Positions 3,725 to 54,189 of a stretch of DNA of 64,000 nt are shown one piece after another. Both the position numbers and the translations under genes were made by a program. Source of the stretch: Rhodothermales bacterium (GTDB taxonomy: Bacteria > Bacteroidota > Rhodothermia > Rhodothermales > VXPQ01). The stretch is from the NCBI GenBank assembly GCA_951812335.1, contig OX638293.1:1534731-1598730 (forward strand), given 5' to 3'. Within the stretch, counting starts at the first letter, position 1. The number at the start of each line of letters is the position of its first letter. The notes beneath the pieces are model-generated. The model saw only the letters and a list, made by a program, of their open reading frames with translations, searched no databases and was not told the DNA's origin.

Positions 3725-3784
3725 GCCGGTTCGATGACCGAGAAATCGCCGGGTCTGCGCTGGTGTGCGATCCGGCAATCTTCG

Positions 3785-3828
3785 CTCCCTGGTTTGTCCC
3801 GCTTCGCTCCCTGGTCTGTGCCGATCGG
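3785..3828. repeat. two 22-bp units related to the ggt repeat
   Basis: Unit 3785-3806 and a diverged copy at 3807-3828 share the core CTCCCTGGTTTGTCCCGCTT with the 21-bp array in ggt about 2.5 kb away. Here the units lie between the hydroxyproline dehydratase start and a truncated cytochrome gene, outside any convincing coding sequence, in the same orientation as in ggt. Confidence 0.7.
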
Positions 3829-5691: not shown

Positions 5692-7071
5692 TCAAGCCGC
5701 ATTGTCGGGTGCATTGGCGTCGTTTGCCCGCTTGTCGGAAAGCGGAGCGCGTCGTACATGCACGCGCCCTATCCGGTTGTTCTCGACCGTCACGATCCGC
5801 ATGACGAGACCCTCGATTTCCATCGTGTTGTCTTTCTCCGGGATCGTTCCCATCTCGTGGAAGATCAGCCCTCCGAGCGTTTCGAAATCGTATGATTCGG
5901 TGTCGAGCGAGGCGCCGAGCAGTTCGTTCACGTCGTCGAGATCGATACGCGCATCGAACAGGTACGTAGCGTCGTCGAGACGCTCGTAGAGTTGCTCTTC
6001 GCTTTCGTCGTGCTCGTCGCGGATTTCTCCCACGATTTCTTCCAGGATGTCTTCGAGCGTGACTAGTCCCGCCGTGCCTCCGTATTCGTCGACGACCACA
6101 GCCATATGGGTTTTTTTCGCTTGCAGATCCTTGAGCAGATCGTCCAGTTTCTTGCCCGGAGGCACGAAAATGGCTGGTCGGGCCACGTCCATCCAATCGA
6201 GAGGTGTGTCTCCATTAGCTCCCAGCAGATAGGGAAGCAAGTCCTTGGCGTACACAATGCCCAGCATGTTGTCGAGGTGATCGGCGTACAGCGGAATGCG
6301 CGAATGCCCCGTATTGCGGATCAATTCGAGGGCTTGCCCGATGTCGGCGGTCACCGGAAGCGCCACGATATCGAGGCGACTCACCATGATTTCCCGGACG
6401 GACGTTTCTCCGAACTCTACGATCGAATAAATAAGTTCTTTTTCTTCTTCTTCGAGGGTGCCGTGCGCTTCTCCCACATCGGCGAGCGTTTTCAGGTCTT
6501 CCGGGGAAATGCGCGTCCCTTCGGTTTCGAGGCGCTCGCGCATGAATCGTGTCGAACGAGCCAGGAAGTCGGACAGGGGATACAGGATGCGATGCAGTGC
6601 CGCCAGCGGTCCGGAAACCGCCCGGCTAAAGGCCTCGGCATAGCGTACCGCGAGCAACTTCGGTGTGATTTCGCTCATGACGAGGATGATGAAGGTCAGC
6701 ACCACGACTTCCAGAACGACCGTGACGGCGTAACTCCAGTCCATTGCCGCTGCGACCCTGGCGGTCAGCAGGGCGGCTACGATGGCGGCGGCCACGTTCG
6801 CTCCCGTGTTCAGGATCAGAATGGTGATGAGCAGTCGCCGGGGGCGTTCGAGAAGTTTCAGCACCCGCCTCGACGCGCGGTCGCCTGCTTCCGCAAGAGA
6901 TGCCTTCGCCAAACCGGTGAGCGAAAAAAGCGCCACCTCCGAACCGGAGAAGATTGCCGACATCAGGAGGAGTGCGAGCAGCGCAATGACGCAGGCGGCC
7001 ACGAATGTCCCGCTCAGCAATACGGGCGCATTCTGCAGGAGAATGAATAACGAAGCAGTGTCAGGGTCCAA
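5692..7071 (-). CDS. CNNM/HlyC-CorC family membrane protein with CBS pair (TlyC/GldE-like)
   Basis: A 459-residue integral membrane protein of the hemolysin C/CorC group. It begins with a DUF21 (CNNM) transmembrane domain of about 190 residues with the conserved SEITPK motif, continues with two CBS domains (about 210-330, including GHSRIPLYADHLD and MAVVVDEYGGTAGLVTLEDI) and ends with a CorC_HlyC domain. CNNM relatives export Mg2+; in Bacteroidota one paralogue, GldE, is tied to gliding, but nothing here separates these roles. It lies 75 bp upstream of purF on the same strand, and its own upstream region holds a MITE-like element. Confidence 0.9.
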   Translation of the reverse strand: MDPDTASLFILLQNAPVLLSGTFVAACVIALLALLLMSAIFSGSEVALFSLTGLAKASLAEAGDRASRRVLKLLERPRRLLITILILNTGANVAAAIVAALLTARVAAAMDWSYAVTVVLEVVVLTFIILVMSEITPKLLAVRYAEAFSRAVSGPLAALHRILYPLSDFLARSTRFMRERLETEGTRISPEDLKTLADVGEAHGTLEEEEKELIYSIVEFGETSVREIMVSRLDIVALPVTADIGQALELIRNTGHSRIPLYADHLDNMLGIVYAKDLLPYLLGANGDTPLDWMDVARPAIFVPPGKKLDDLLKDLQAKKTHMAVVVDEYGGTAGLVTLEDILEEIVGEIRDEHDESEEQLYERLDDATYLFDARIDLDDVNELLGASLDTESYDFETLGGLIFHEMGTIPEKDNTMEIEGLVMRIVTVENNRIGRVHVRRAPLSDKRANDANAPDNAA

Positions 7072-7107
7072 CGGAGGGGCGGCAAGTTACTGATGACAGA
7101 TGGAAAT

Positions 7108-7363
7108 GGATACTCTGATTAAGTCTGCAAAGCTCAGAGGCTCAGAGGAGTGCGCTGGCAAGCAATGACGAAGCAGTGTGGCAAGGCCCCACATAATGAG
7201 GAATGACGCGGCCAGCGTGCTCCTCTCAGCCTCCCGAAGGGCGCTTCACGCCCGAAACGCTCCGAATCCGCAGTGTTTTCTGCTGATTTCAACGATGGAA
7301 TCATGACGTCCTTTACGCGTGAAAGTGAAGTGCTGGGCGAAGTGGACTTGATCTAGCGTATCC
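7108..7363 (+). mobile_element. MITE-like element, intact copy 1
   Basis: About 256 bp without an open frame, filling most of the 382-bp gap 7072-7453. The left end 7108-7125 (GGATACTCTGATTAAGTC) is repeated inverted at 7344-7363 with a few differences. Inside, a 21-bp arm at 7139-7159 pairs with 7211-7231 (18 Watson-Crick pairs, two G-T wobbles, one mismatch), and the loop holds a small second hairpin (TGTGG/CCACA). A near-identical copy lies inverted at 53933-54189 and permuted fragments at 15297-15450. No transposase is visible, so it would be non-autonomous. No clear target duplication is seen. Confidence 0.75.
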
Positions 7364-7453
7364 AAAGTAGGGATTTGCGCATACATTCGCGCAGGAATAA
7401 CGGGTGCAGGGAAGTATGGCAGGGATATGCGGGAGCGAGCGCTAAGCCGTCGG

Positions 7454-8221
7454 CTATTCGTACAGGTCGTCGAGATCGGCGTCCGCCAGTTCTTTCAGGA
7501 ACGCCGCGATTTTCGTGGTCACGTCGTCGAAGAAACGCGCTCCCTTATCCGGAGTGGCGCGGGAAGGGTCGCCAACCCCGGTACTCTCGGTTACCTTCGA
7601 CCACTGCCGTTCGGCCCAGACCCATTTTTCCCGCAGCCCCTCGATGTTGAATCGCCGCTCTGCGCCGTCGCCGGCTTCTTCGAGCGGAAGCACCCGTTCG
7701 GGATAAAGGTGCATCATAAGACTCGTTTCCATTTCACCGGCATGATCCCCCGGCATTTCGAAATACTCTGCGGGGTTCATAATCCGGAACCAGTGCATTT
7801 CGCACAGAAACATCTCCGGATGCGCGGCGCCGATTTCCCGGATCGTTTGTCGAAAATCGTTGCCTCCGTGGCCGTTGAGTATAAGCAGTTTACGGATTTC
7901 GGTGTGCGAGACCGCATCGACGACATCCTCGAGGATAGCGGCTTGCGTACTCGGATAGAGGTTCATGTCGAGTTTAATGTCCAGTTGCCCGGTGTTGACG
8001 CCGAAAGGAATCGTGGGCAGGACAATGATATTGGCGCCGGCCTCCCATGCCTTGCGCGCCGCTTCGGCGGCGATATGGTCGCATTCGACCACATCGGTGG
8101 AGTAGGGCAGGTGGTAGTTGTGCGCTTCCGTTGCGCCCCAGGGCAGGACAGCGACATCGTATGCGGTTTGCCGAACGGTCTTCCAGTTCGTGTCGGCAAG
8201 GATATACGGGCGAATGGACAT
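7454..8221 (-). CDS. creatininase-family amidohydrolase
   Basis: A 255-residue member of the creatininase (creatinine amidohydrolase) family of binuclear metal amidohydrolases. The family's metal and substrate signatures are present: PWGATEAHNYHLPYSTD, LNGHGGND and DHAGEMETS. Family members act on creatinine, formamidopyrimidines or peptide-coenzyme substrates; no neighbour here is a creatine or creatinine gene, so the substrate stays open. It follows the DNA methyltransferase gene by 56 bp on the same strand and may be co-transcribed with it. Confidence 0.88.
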   Translation of the reverse strand: MSIRPYILADTNWKTVRQTAYDVAVLPWGATEAHNYHLPYSTDVVECDHIAAEAARKAWEAGANIIVLPTIPFGVNTGQLDIKLDMNLYPSTQAAILEDVVDAVSHTEIRKLLILNGHGGNDFRQTIREIGAAHPEMFLCEMHWFRIMNPAEYFEMPGDHAGEMETSLMMHLYPERVLPLEEAGDGAERRFNIEGLREKWVWAERQWSKVTESTGVGDPSRATPDKGARFFDDVTTKIAAFLKELADADLDDLYE

Positions 8222-8277: not shown

Positions 8278-9123
8278 TCACTGCCCGCTATGCCGCCGGT
8301 AGGGATCGTATATCGGCTTTCCCATGGGGCGTGTGCGGAGCGTGCCGTCGCGCAGCGCCCGGACCCGCTCGCGGGCGATCGCCACGTATTCGGGCACGAT
8401 ATCGCAACCGTATGCCTTCCTGCCGTGCATCCGAGCTGCGACGATCGACGACCCGACGCCCATGTACGGATCGAAGACCGCATCGCCCGGATCGGTCATG
8501 GACAGTACGAGCCGCTCCGCCAGTTCGACAGGAAACTGGCACGGGTGGATCGTTTTTTCCACGTGATTGCTCTTGACGTTGGGAAATAGCCACACATCGC
8601 TGGGGTTTTTTCCGTTCGGGTTGCCCGAAAGCCGCCCGATGTTAGGCCCCTTGAAATGTCGTTTGTTCGGGTATTTGGCCGGAATTCGTACCGGGTCGAG
8701 GTGAAACGTATAATCGTTGCTCCGGGTCCACCAGTTGATCGTTTCGTAGCGCCCTGAGAACCGCTTCGAGCAATGCAGGCCGTGCCCGAAGTGCCAAACG
8801 ATCCGGTTCCGCATCTTCAGATCGTGCTTGCGGAAAAGCGGGTACAGTACGGTATCGAGCGGGATAATTTCTCCCTGCTCCACATAGTTTCCGACCTGCC
8901 AGCACAGGGAGCCCGAGGGGTGCAGGAGCCGCACGCATTCGGAGATGACGAGATCCTGCCGGTGAAGGTACTCTTCCAGCGGCGCCCGTTTCTCGTAGGA
9001 TTTGCCGAGGTTATAGGGAGGCGACGTGACGATCAGTTTCATCTGCCCGTCCTCGAATTCCCGCATGAATACAAGGTTATTCTTGCATTCCATGACCGGC
9101 GTGTCCTGTCCGTTCGCCTGCAT
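8278..9123 (-). CDS. site-specific DNA methyltransferase (beta-class order)
   Basis: A 281-residue DNA methyltransferase. The catalytic motif IV TSPPYN is near the N-terminus (about residue 34), while the AdoMet motif I region DPYMGVGSSIVAA lies near residue 220. This order (IV, recognition region, I) is that of beta-class amino-methyltransferases. An SPPY core instead of DPPY is commoner in N4-cytosine enzymes but also occurs in N6-adenine ones, so the modified base is not certain. There is no restriction endonuclease gene beside it, so it looks like an orphan methyltransferase. It is third in a tight run with ssb and a deoxyribosyltransferase-like gene, 15 bp behind the latter. Confidence 0.9.
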   Translation of the reverse strand: MQANGQDTPVMECKNNLVFMREFEDGQMKLIVTSPPYNLGKSYEKRAPLEEYLHRQDLVISECVRLLHPSGSLCWQVGNYVEQGEIIPLDTVLYPLFRKHDLKMRNRIVWHFGHGLHCSKRFSGRYETINWWTRSNDYTFHLDPVRIPAKYPNKRHFKGPNIGRLSGNPNGKNPSDVWLFPNVKSNHVEKTIHPCQFPVELAERLVLSMTDPGDAVFDPYMGVGSSIVAARMHGRKAYGCDIVPEYVAIARERVRALRDGTLRTRPMGKPIYDPYRRHSGQ

Positions 9124-15182: not shown

Positions 15183-15296
15183 ACGCAGGGGACAGGACGC
15201 TTACGCACCCGCATGGCGGACGGGTTTCCACCGGACAGCCATATATGATTCGGGAGGGCGTTTATGCCGCGCGCACGGTTATGCGAAAGCGCAGTC

Positions 15297-15450
15297 TCCC
15301 GAAGGGCGCTTCCCGCCCGCGATGCCCCGCATCCGAAGCGTTTCTCGCTGATTTCAACGATGGAACCATGACATGGATTCTGATTAAGTCCGCGAAGATC
15401 AGAGGCTGCGAGGGGTGGGCTGGCAAGGAATGACGAAGCAGTGCGGGGCC
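15297..15450 (+). mobile_element. MITE-like element, two abutting partial copies in permuted order
   Basis: 15297-15372 matches the right module of the intact elements (CCCGAAGGGCGCTTC to the CATGAC following TTTCAACGATGGA). It is followed directly by 15375-15450, which matches their left end (GGATTCTGATTAAGTC, then the left hairpin arm and AATGACGAAGCAGTG). The right hairpin arm and the outer right terminus are missing. The order is therefore right half then left half, opposite to the copies at 7108 and 53933. It lies between the amidase and PorV-like genes, just upstream of the amidase start. Confidence 0.7.
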
Positions 15451-15461
15451 TGAGAGCATTC

Positions 15462-16502
15462 TTAAAATCCGAGATCGATCGTGAACCAGTGCGTCTGTTC
15501 GAGGCGCCCGAAATCCGCCCAGGCATAGTCGATGCGGACACGGAGCGCCCTGTCGATACGAAGATTCAGACCTCCTCCCATGGTAAGCCCCTGTTCGCCG
15601 TTTGCCTCGAACAGGTTGCGGTAGCCTGCCCGCAACGCGATCAGATTCCGGAAGTCATACTCTGCGCCGAAGTTCAGGTATTCGTAGTTATCGTTCGGGT
15701 GGGTTGCGTCGGTGGAAAGCACGAAGGTATGATTCGCGGTCTCCAGGGCATCCCAGGACAGGCCGATCCGAAACAGGAGCGGCAGCGGATGCCGGTCCAG
15801 CAGGTATTCGGAATTGACGATCTCCACCACGCCGCCCTGGTTGGGCGTCGGGTCCGTGCTGAACACGATGTCGCGCCCGCCCATTTGCATCTTCGGCCCG
15901 AAGTTCGAGAAACTGGCGCCGAGGCGCAGACGCTCGTAGGGCGTCGTGAACAGCGTACCCACATCGAGGGCAATGGACGACGCCGTGCTGTGCCAGATGC
16001 GTTCCTGAATGAACTTGAAGCTTCCGCCGATGGAGAAGCGGTCCGTCAGCCCTCGCCCGTACGATACCTGGATAGCGTAATTCTGCACCTTGAAGCGTTC
16101 TCCGGTGCCTTCCGGCTGTGCGATCGTCCGCACGAGCATATCCCCGGAGTCGAGGTAGATCAACGAAGCGGCCAGCGTGCCTGCATTGCCGAGCGAAGTA
16201 CCGAACGCAGCGAAATTGTAGGCGATGTCGGCAAGATACCGGGTGTGCGCCAGCTGCACGGAGGCGCCGGACAGAAGAGCGAGGCCCGCCGGATTCCAGT
16301 ACATGGCGGACAGGTCGTTTGCCTGGGCGACAAACGCGCCTCCCAGCGCAATGGGCCGGGCGCCCACGCCGAGTTTCAGGAATTGCGCTGCCGTCGCGCC
16401 CGTTTTTGTAACGGTCTTGTTCCGGGGCGCCGCCGCATTTTCCTGCCCCCGGACTTCAAGGGGCAGCATCAGGAGGACAGCTATCGCAGCGAGATATCTC
16501 AT
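15462..16502 (-). CDS. PorV/PorQ-like outer-membrane barrel protein (cluster A)
   Basis: A 346-residue outer-membrane barrel of the PorV/PorQ family (FadL-like fold). It has a signal peptide (about 1-19, ending RGQE), then the family's typical N-terminal segment AAQFLKLGVGARPIALGGAFVAQANDLSAMYWNPAGLA and a C-terminus ending in Phe (WFTIDLGF) as in many barrels. PorV carries T9SS substrates to the surface in Bacteroidota; many paralogues in this phylum have no tested role. It follows the 1151-residue surface protein gene by 13 bp, so it is very likely in its operon. Confidence 0.88.
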   Translation of the reverse strand: MRYLAAIAVLLMLPLEVRGQENAAAPRNKTVTKTGATAAQFLKLGVGARPIALGGAFVAQANDLSAMYWNPAGLALLSGASVQLAHTRYLADIAYNFAAFGTSLGNAGTLAASLIYLDSGDMLVRTIAQPEGTGERFKVQNYAIQVSYGRGLTDRFSIGGSFKFIQERIWHSTASSIALDVGTLFTTPYERLRLGASFSNFGPKMQMGGRDIVFSTDPTPNQGGVVEIVNSEYLLDRHPLPLLFRIGLSWDALETANHTFVLSTDATHPNDNYEYLNFGAEYDFRNLIALRAGYRNLFEANGEQGLTMGGGLNLRIDRALRVRIDYAWADFGRLEQTHWFTIDLGF

Positions 16503-48467: not shown

Positions 48468-49886
48468 ATGCGCAAGACAATACAATCGGAAAGCGGCATT
48501 ATGTGGCACGACAATATCATTGGTACCATAGGCAAGACCCCTCTCGTACGGCTTCGCAGGATTACGGCGGACTGGCCCTGTACGGTGCTGGCCAAACTGG
48601 AGTATTTCAATCCGGGCGGGTCTGTCAAGGATCGCATCGGTATGGCTATGATCGAAGAGGCCGAAAAAAACGGTTTGTTGGGGCCGGGAGGGACCATTGT
48701 CGAGGGTACGAGCGGGAATACAGGCGCAGCGCTGGCAATGGCGGCCGTGACGCGTGGATACCGGTGTGTTTTTACGACCACCGACAAGCAGAGCCAGGAA
48801 AAACTGGATGTTTTGCGGGCCTTGGGCGCCGAGGTGATCGTATGTCCGACCAACGTAGCCCCTGAGGATCCGAGGTCCTATTACTCCGTGGCGCAGCGTT
48901 TTGCCGAAGAAATCCCCGGTGCGGTATACCTGAACCAGTACGACAACCCGGCAAATCAGGCAGCTCATTACGAAACGACCGGGCCCGAGATATGGGCGGA
49001 CACCGATGGACGGATCACCCATTATGTGGTGGGTGCGGGCACGGGCGGAACGCTTTCCGGCGTATCGCGCTATCTCAAAGAGCAGAATCCGGAGGTGCAG
49101 ATTATCGGCGTCGATCCTTGCGGCTCGATCTATCACGGATATTTCCATACCGGGCAGGTTGCCCCGGGCGACATTTACCCCTACCTGACGGAAGGGGTCG
49201 GCGAGGACTTGCTGGCTGCAAATATGGATTTCGATTTGCCGGACGATTTCGTGCAGGTAACGGATCGGGAGGCGATGCGGATGACGCGCCGACTTGCCGC
49301 GGAAGAAGGCCTGTTTTGCGGGCAATCTTCCGGCATGGCGCTTGCAGGGGCGCTGTCGTGGATGGAGGCACACGCCGAAGAGCTTTCCAGCAACGATGTG
49401 TTCGTGTTGCTTTTGCCCGATTCGGGATTCCGGTATCTTTCGAAGACGTACAATGACAATTGGATGCGTAATCACGGTTTTATGTCGAGCATGCCGGAGG
49501 TTACGGTGGACCGGGTTCTGGGTGCTAGGGATGACAACGAGCAGCTGGCATATGCTACGCCCGAAGACACGCTTGGCTCGGTAATCGGAGTCATGGCCGA
49601 GCGCGGCATCTCGCAGATGCCCGTGATGCGAAACGATGAGCTTGTCGGAAGCCTTACGGAAAGTGTGATTATGGACCGCCTCGTCAAAGACCCGGAAACG
49701 CGAGACCAGCCTGTGGAAGACATCATGGATGCGCCTTTTCCGGTGGTTCCACGTACACTTGGCCTTGAGCATCTTTCCATGTACCTTGAGCAGGGAGGCG
49801 GGGCCGTGCTTGTTAAATCGGCGCCGGGAGAGACGTATCAGATCATCACCAAAAGCGACCTGATCGGCGCCTTGGCGCCGTCATGA
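48468..49886 (+). CDS. cystathionine beta-synthase
   Basis: PLP enzyme that condenses serine (or O-acetylserine) with homocysteine or sulfide. The 472-residue protein has the PLP Lys54 in NPGGSVKDR, the SGNTG loop (EGTSGNTGAAL), GAGTGGTLSG and a C-terminal pair of CBS domains (about 345-470). This layout fits cystathionine beta-synthase better than plain cysteine synthase. A second possible start is ATG 48501 (MWHDNIIGTIG), which fits the usual N-terminus. Its last codons (KSDLIGALAPS, stop) are the first unit of a 35-bp tandem array, and the stop overlaps the ATG of the next mini-frame. Confidence 0.9.
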   Translation: MRKTIQSESGIMWHDNIIGTIGKTPLVRLRRITADWPCTVLAKLEYFNPGGSVKDRIGMAMIEEAEKNGLLGPGGTIVEGTSGNTGAALAMAAVTRGYRCVFTTTDKQSQEKLDVLRALGAEVIVCPTNVAPEDPRSYYSVAQRFAEEIPGAVYLNQYDNPANQAAHYETTGPEIWADTDGRITHYVVGAGTGGTLSGVSRYLKEQNPEVQIIGVDPCGSIYHGYFHTGQVAPGDIYPYLTEGVGEDLLAANMDFDLPDDFVQVTDREAMRMTRRLAAEEGLFCGQSSGMALAGALSWMEAHAEELSSNDVFVLLLPDSGFRYLSKTYNDNWMRNHGFMSSMPEVTVDRVLGARDDNEQLAYATPEDTLGSVIGVMAERGISQMPVMRNDELVGSLTESVIMDRLVKDPETRDQPVEDIMDAPFPVVPRTLGLEHLSMYLEQGGGAVLVKSAPGETYQIITKSDLIGALAPS

Positions 49887-49921
49887 AAAGCGACCCGATC
49901 GGCGCCCTGGCGCCGTCATGA
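49883..49921 (+). CDS. mini-frame 1 of the ATGA-linked chain (12 residues)
   Basis: Encodes MKSDPIGALAPS and stops. Its ATG overlaps the stop of cystathionine beta-synthase (ATGA) and its stop overlaps the next ATG. The peptide repeats the enzyme's own last residues. Translation is not shown by sequence alone. Confidence 0.35.
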   Translation: MKSDPIGALAPS

Positions 49922-49956
49922 AAAGCGACCCGATCGGCGCCCTGACCCCGTCATGA
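49918..49956 (+). CDS. mini-frame 2 of the ATGA-linked chain (12 residues)
   Basis: Encodes MKSDPIGALTPS; linked by ATGA overlaps on both sides. Differs from mini-frame 1 by Ala to Thr. Confidence 0.35.
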   Translation: MKSDPIGALTPS

Positions 49957-49991
49957 AAAGCGACCTGATCGGCGCCCTGACCCCGTCATGA
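49953..49991 (+). CDS. mini-frame 3 of the ATGA-linked chain (12 residues)
   Basis: Encodes MKSDLIGALTPS; linked by ATGA overlaps on both sides. Pro at position 5 is Leu, as in the enzyme's own tail. Confidence 0.35.
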   Translation: MKSDLIGALTPS

Positions 49992-50026
49992 AAAACGATC
50001 CGATCGGCGCCCTGACCCCGTCATGA
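49988..50026 (+). CDS. mini-frame 4 of the ATGA-linked chain (12 residues)
   Basis: Encodes MKNDPIGALTPS; linked by ATGA overlaps on both sides. It has one further synonymous change (GAC to GAT). Confidence 0.35.
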   Translation: MKNDPIGALTPS

Positions 50027-50106
50027 AAAACGACCGGTGCTTTGTCCGCCGCAAGCGTACCCTAAAGGATTGCCGGTTCTTCCGAACCATCTCTCAAATC
50101 GCGTGA
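50023..50106 (+). CDS. last frame of the ATGA-linked chain (27 residues)
   Basis: Starts like the others (MKND) but leaves the repeat and reads on as a basic, Cys-containing peptide (RCFVRRKRTLKDCRFF...) to a TGA at 50104-50106, 7 bp before the iolG ATG. It resembles no family I know; its possible value is to bring ribosomes to the iolG start. Confidence 0.3.
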   Translation: MKNDRCFVRRKRTLKDCRFFRTISQIA

Positions 50107-53932: not shown

Positions 53933-54189
53933 GGATACTCCGATCAAAATCACTTCGCCCGGCACTTTACTTTCGCGCATAAAGGACGTCATGATTCCAT
54001 CGTTGAAATCAGCAGAAAACACTGCGGATTCGGGGCGTCGCGGACGTGAAGCACCCTTCGGGAGGCTGCGAGGGGCACGCTGGCCGCGTCGTCCTTCCTC
54101 ATTATGTAGGGCCTGCCACACTGCTTCGTCATTCCTTGCCGGCGCATCCCTCTCAGCCTCTGAGCTTTGCGGACTTAATCAGAGTATCC
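53933..54189 (-). mobile_element. MITE-like element, intact copy 2 (inverted)
   Basis: About 257 bp, near-identical in order and length to 7108-7363 but inverted. Termini 53933-53951 (GGATACTCCGATCAAAATC) and 54171-54189 (complement of GGATACTCTGATTAAGTCC) form terminal inverted repeats. The 21-bp hairpin arms are 54064-54084 and 54138-54158; several positions that differ from copy 1 still pair, some as G-T wobble. It separates iolE from iolB and starts directly at the iolE stop. No transposase and no clear target duplication. Confidence 0.78.

Follow-up and report, generated by a model that had tools for sequence, protein, structure and literature searches.

The window, by which we mean the whole 64,000-nucleotide stretch of DNA analysed here, contains two full copies and one scrambled relic of a MITE (Table 1). 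Copy 1 is intergenic, located between two genes that we take from their translations to encode a CNNM/CorC-like membrane protein (5692-7071, minus strand) and a creatininase-like protein (7454-8221, minus strand). Its left end, GGATACTCTGATTAAGTC (7108-7125), has an inverted, imperfect partner that terminates at 7363, as the first-pass annotation had described, and the same 18-mer recurs on the minus strand at 54172-54189, against a chance expectation of 0.01 matches. The hairpin between these ends (P2) was likewise real, yet its arms span 23 bp rather than the 21 bp originally given, including a single C-C mismatch and two G-T pairs; the second small hairpin and the two AATGACG boxes that had been placed in its loop were both confirmed. 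The predicted RNA fold of copy 1 is markedly stable relative to dinucleotide shuffles (z = -6.8). Copy 2 has the same layout on the minus strand, again as annotated, and its target duplication reads CTCA on the right and, with one additional A, CTTA on the left. The third place noted at first proved to be a relic in which two parts of the element are joined out of order. Full copies measure 254-257 bp and lack coding capacity: no open frame belongs to the element and it has no transposase gene of its own, in agreement with the earlier reading.

Table 1. Coordinates of element copies and their parts in the window
Feature	Position	Strand	Remarks
Full MITE copy 1, 256 bp	7108..7363	+	From genome DNA search, empty site in G003, G004 and G005, and flanking ORFs
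Left target-site duplication, copy 1	7104..7107	+	AAAT
Left terminal inverted repeat and inner P1 strand	7108..7135	+	GGATACTCTGATTAAGTC...; about the outer 18-20 bp shared with the IS
P2 hairpin, 5' arm	7137..7159	+	Pairs with 7211-7233
P2 5' internal loop	7160..7175	+	AAGCAATGACGAAGCA (family AAGGAATGACGAAGCA)
AATGACG boxes, copy 1	7164-7170 and 7202-7208		
P2 tip hairpin	7176..7194	+	GTGTGG/CCACAT; arms 7176-7181 with 7189-7194
P2 3' internal loop	7195..7210	+	AATGAGGAATGACGCG
P2 hairpin, 3' arm	7211..7233	+	Pairs with 7137-7159
P3 stem, 5' arm	7240..7249	+	Pairs with 7325-7334
Distal part of P3	7250..7324	+	Unstructured, fast evolving
P3 stem, 3' arm	7325..7334	+	Pairs with 7240-7249
Right terminal inverted repeat and inner P1 strand, copy 1	7335..7363	+	Imperfect, GACTTGATCTAGCGTATCC
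Right target-site duplication, copy 1	7364..7367	+	AAAG
Scrambled relic	15290..15446	+	Element positions 117-199 (15290-15372), then 7-74 (15379-15446)
Full MITE copy 2, 257 bp	53933..54189	-	Layout as copy 1

The motif AATAACGAAGCAGTG at 7046, just outside copy 1, was considered as related and set aside as chance; it overlaps a gene start and was the sole such case outside copies in the sample. Elsewhere the window contains a 35-bp tandem repeat at 49851-50035 (5.3 copies, 94 % matches), 21-22 bp tandem repeats with a TGTCCCG/CTTCGCTCC motif at 1132-1250 and 3780-3823, and a gene at 8278-9123 that carries a TSPPYN motif and resembles a stand-alone DNA methyltransferase.

Copy number and distribution

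The genome of origin (G000) is a chromosome in one contig of 2,686,407 bases (2.69 Mb). A DNA search of it listed 43 matches, about 40 of them near full length with 83-100 % identity, whilst a pattern search for the ends returned 460 sites compared with 3 for a reversed control. A covariance model of the P2 hairpin, built on 19 rows after removal of a single inserted base from two of them, gave 142 matches, approximately 139 of which were strong. The family thus comprises at least about 140 copies in this genome and is not restricted to the three places first noted. The stretches of G000 that were sampled lie near known ends, which biases local density, and the genome-wide figures are those of the pattern search and the hairpin model. 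Almost all copies were intergenic, with 82 of 86 falling outside long ORFs when genes were defined by a crude ORF call.

A DNA search detected the family in each of the six genomes of the genus, whereas 34 genomes representing other families of the order had none. Outside the genus, the hairpin model gave nothing convincing among 114 genomes of the order, where its one match was weak (E 0.006) and no stand-alone copy outside the element was found. Named genomes carrying the end pattern were mostly Rhodothermales MAGs. Viral contigs gave no match to the exact core pattern, plasmids gave none by blastn, and Rfam returned no match at gathering scores and, at permissive thresholds, two weak ones far below theirs. 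A literature search found no paper combining the full MITE name with Rhodothermales. As known so far, the family is confined to one genus of uncultured Rhodothermales bacteria.

Mobility and the transposase partner

Both ends of the element carry GGATACTCTGATNAAG, and the helix they form (P1) is 97.4 % paired across 86 copies. In 91 copies, the 4 bp before the left end matched the 4 bp after the right end at a rate of 0.679 versus 0.468 in shuffled comparisons (z 10.5); the excess occurred at length 4 alone and the target was TTAA-like. Both window copies have a matching site that lacks the element in three congeners (G003, G004 and G005). For copy 1, where the duplication is imperfect, the empty site reads GGAAAAGTAGG; for copy 2, GGCATCTCAGTAAC in G004 corresponds to GGCATCTTAA-element-CTCAGTAAC, with a similar empty site in G003 and G005. 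At least one other insertion, by contrast, is common to G000 and G004 with the same flanks (L006 and L032), and the insertions are therefore of mixed age. In the G002 region matching window position 7108 (L169), we observed intergenic TIR-like scraps, GTATCC...GGTACTCTGA, perhaps from an older insertion.

Some MITE copies lie inside others. One such composite of approximately 517 bp occurs in inverted orientation on both sides of a ruvB-like gene (L059:13531-14047 and 15439-15954; about 563,530-565,953 of G000), indicating that nested elements moved or were copied as a unit. Short derivatives without P2 are also present in G000; two 37-bp elements (L058:9397-9433 and L064:14719-14755) contain little beyond the two terminal repeats. 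Taken with the transposase relics described below, these features make mobility of the family well supported and define the element as a MITE, as the first-pass annotation had proposed among other readings.

The genome G004 carries three DDE_Tnp_1 relics, and transposase relics there are bounded by the same ends as the MITE. One of them (L075) is an internally deleted element of 666 bp with ends GGATACTCTGATTTAATCC and CCGGATTGATCAGAGTATCC; its protein pieces match the NCBIfam IS5-family model, at 5e-40 for a G004 piece. In G000 the partner IS is reduced to a decayed 3' end, and the genomes of the genus yielded no intact transposase with MITE ends. An intact-looking homologous IS (L153, G029) comes from a different genus of the order; it is 72 % identical over the searched piece and matches the NCBIfam IS5 family at 1.6e-100, with diverged ends (GGAATGTCTGATCAA) and no clean duplication in its flanks. 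The MITE and the IS have only about 18-20 terminal bp in common, and the sole blastn similarity between the element and the transposase loci was a separate MITE copy in L071. Simple internal deletion of the known IS5 copies consequently does not account for the MITE, whose interior does not derive from them. With its IS5-type ends, own sequence and P2/P3 core, it constitutes a new MITE family. The matching ends suggest that an IS5 transposase recognized the MITE ends in trans and moved the element; current mobility is putative, only relics of the partner having been found in the genus.

Three further candidates for the partner were rejected. DDE_3/IS630 gave no real match. An IS5-like IS at G000:636280, with ends GGGCGTGTTAACAC, is itself inserted into a MITE end. 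Long TIR pairs of 1.3-4.3 kb in the sampled stretches, considered as an autonomous element, enclose ordinary genes and are mostly chance end matches. The IS5-like IS rejected above, around position 636280 of contig C1 (L068; ends GGGCGTGTTAACACTAA), has counterparts in G001 and G002 in the form of similar transposase matches.

A conserved folded core

In an alignment of 86 copies the structure consists of P1, formed by the terminal repeats, of P2 and its tip stem, and of P3. Across these copies 95.5 % of cells were paired, versus 93.0 % when shuffled and 33-47 % when partners were slid, and both sides had changed in 22 of 63 pairs, versus 10.9 +/- 1.8 in shuffled and 8-13 in slid alignments (141 cells versus 42). 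The arm differences that had been noted to preserve pairing in the window copies are therefore real and above chance. On a tree we counted 51 both-sided, pair-keeping changes versus 0-4 for slid partners, although event counts may be inflated by recombination between copies. Covariation in P1 should be discounted because both ends must fit one transposase; P2, tip and P3 without P1 retained 40 WC-to-WC events. Compensated variants of the tip stem in other copies include ATGTGG/CCACAT, GTGTGG/CCACAC, GCGTGG/CCACGT, GCATGG/CCATGT and GCTTGG/CCAAGT.

The most conserved part of the element is the pair of P2 loops. Across the 86 copies, mean column identity was 0.988 in the 5' loop (9 of 16 columns invariant) and 0.933 in the 3' loop (6 of 16), compared with 0.807 in the distal P3 region, which is unstructured (mean z about 0). 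Alleles common to at least three copies numbered 3 in the loops (32 sites), 107 in the distal region (75 sites) and 63 in the stems (126 sites), whilst singletons per site were of the same order in all three classes, a pattern that we read as probable constraint on multiplying lineages with decay of single copies. Natural variants also retain the core: in one subfamily distal P3 is inverted and the P3 stem kept, as judged by eye in the alignment (L056:773, L047:3658, L130:5498 and L078:2112), and in a 187-bp subfamily, of which seven copies were read in G003 and G005, distal P3 is deleted with P1, P2 and P3 kept. The element thus has a conserved folded core, to which a function may be ascribed. 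The first-pass annotation had offered selection on the fold or youth of the copies; copies differ from each other by 11-20 %, the stems covary and the P2 loops are near invariant, which favours mainly constraint on the fold over youth.

Of the two strands taken as RNA, the plus strand folded better for 24 of 29 hairpins and for 9 of 10 full copies. G-U cells outnumbered A-C cells 358:90 across P2, tip and P3. Counted as events, WC-to-GU versus WC-to-AC changes in the same stems stood at 88:50, close to the background of 105:67 for substitutions of the same types at distal sites that do not pair, and the asymmetry was discarded as evidence that would establish an RNA strand. In orientation, 19 copies were sense to their flanking genes and 29 antisense, indicating no preference. 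Because of these two results, the plus strand is only suggested to be the RNA strand. The other reading in the first-pass annotation, a structured RNA that moves as a MITE, is a possible one, given a conserved fold with greater stability as plus-strand RNA. Majority G-T pairs persist across species at columns 47-125, 48-124, 148-246 and 17-259, and the tip pair at columns 73-95 switches from UA to CG with no intermediates seen.

Interpretation and comparison with known systems

We consider it probable that the family is an IS5-mobilized MITE whose folded core is kept and most likely acts at the RNA level. An IS5 transposase of the genus would have recognized the ends in trans and moved the gene-free element, whose interior, made up of P2 (including the tip stem) and the P3 stem, is no remnant of the known IS copies. 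Lineages that keep the folded core would go on multiplying, whilst single copies would decay after insertion. A read-through or own plus-strand transcript could fold into the core, which may keep the insertion tolerable or the element competent, as proposed for BOX, RUP, ERIC and Correia. A single jump does not strictly require the core, since short derivatives without P2 exist in the genome.

The main alternative shares the MITE but assigns the fold to DNA only: folding of single-stranded DNA, or a cruciform, would juxtapose the two ends for the transposase, or the arms would be corrected time and again through template switching at imperfect palindromes, with no RNA involved. The lack of orientation bias and the event-level G-U excess, no stronger than background, fit this explanation, and the switch at the tip pair is what concerted correction or conversion would give. 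Correction should nevertheless remove the majority G-T pairs that persist at several positions across species, conservation peaks in the P2 loops although they do not pair, and of the two strands the plus folds better; we regard a DNA-only fold as a possible but distinctly less likely explanation. Improbable in our view is an RNA in the service of the host, either a structured RNA gene or a cis-regulatory RNA, which happens to be carried within IS5-type ends. Conserved loops, covarying stems, a core kept in the 187-bp subfamily and the lack of such a family in Rfam at its thresholds would all suit a host RNA, but single copies gain unique loop changes about as often as elsewhere, sites and orientations vary, both window copies are missing from sister species and the order yielded no stand-alone copy.

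A similarly doubtful idea is that the element encodes a trans-acting non-coding RNA as a mobile gene, whose P2 loop core would bind a protein or another RNA and drive spread and retention in the genus beyond mobilization by the transposase. A dispersed repeat that is no transposon, whether spread by recombination, REP/BIME-like or a CRISPR-like array, could account for copies that adjoin or sit inside each other; empty sites accompanied by duplication have already refuted it, and the 4-bp length of that duplication, the cleanness of the sites and the relics with the same ends leave it a negligible probability.

Folded MITEs are common, but selection on their fold, as RNA or DNA, is rarely testable. 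The value of this family is that some 140 copies in one closed chromosome occur alongside congeners with empty sites and transposase relics with matching ends. Natural variants delete or invert one arm and keep the rest, such that the question of why folded mini-transposons keep their fold becomes directly testable.

The family resembles IS5-family elements (NCBIfam NF033581), to which the relics belong, in its 4-bp target duplication, but is a MITE without a transposase gene that has only the terminal 18-20 bp or so in common with them. REPINs of Pseudomonas are also non-autonomous, hairpin-forming and present in many copies, and their populations keep a conserved core whilst single copies decay; unlike the MITE described here, they depend on RAYT (Y1) transposases and are without IS5-type ends and target duplications. 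BOX, RUP, ERIC and Correia, as high-copy, strongly folded repeats that are sometimes transcribed and processed, are by analogy the nearest kinds. BOX and RUP of Streptococcus pneumoniae share with this family a high copy number, mostly gene-free intergenic copies and terminal repeats that pair in a strongly folded transcript, and copies of BOX have been shown to be transcribed (PMC3049150). They differ in host and sequence; the present family has IS5-type ends with 4-bp TTAA-like duplications, and its most conserved part is formed by two paired-off internal loops within a long hairpin. ERIC and Correia (NEMIS), which we set beside this family by description as MITE-like, high-copy folded repeats, reach up to hundreds of copies, and their folded transcripts affect mRNA processing, through RNase III for Correia and RNase E for ERIC (PMC10969869).
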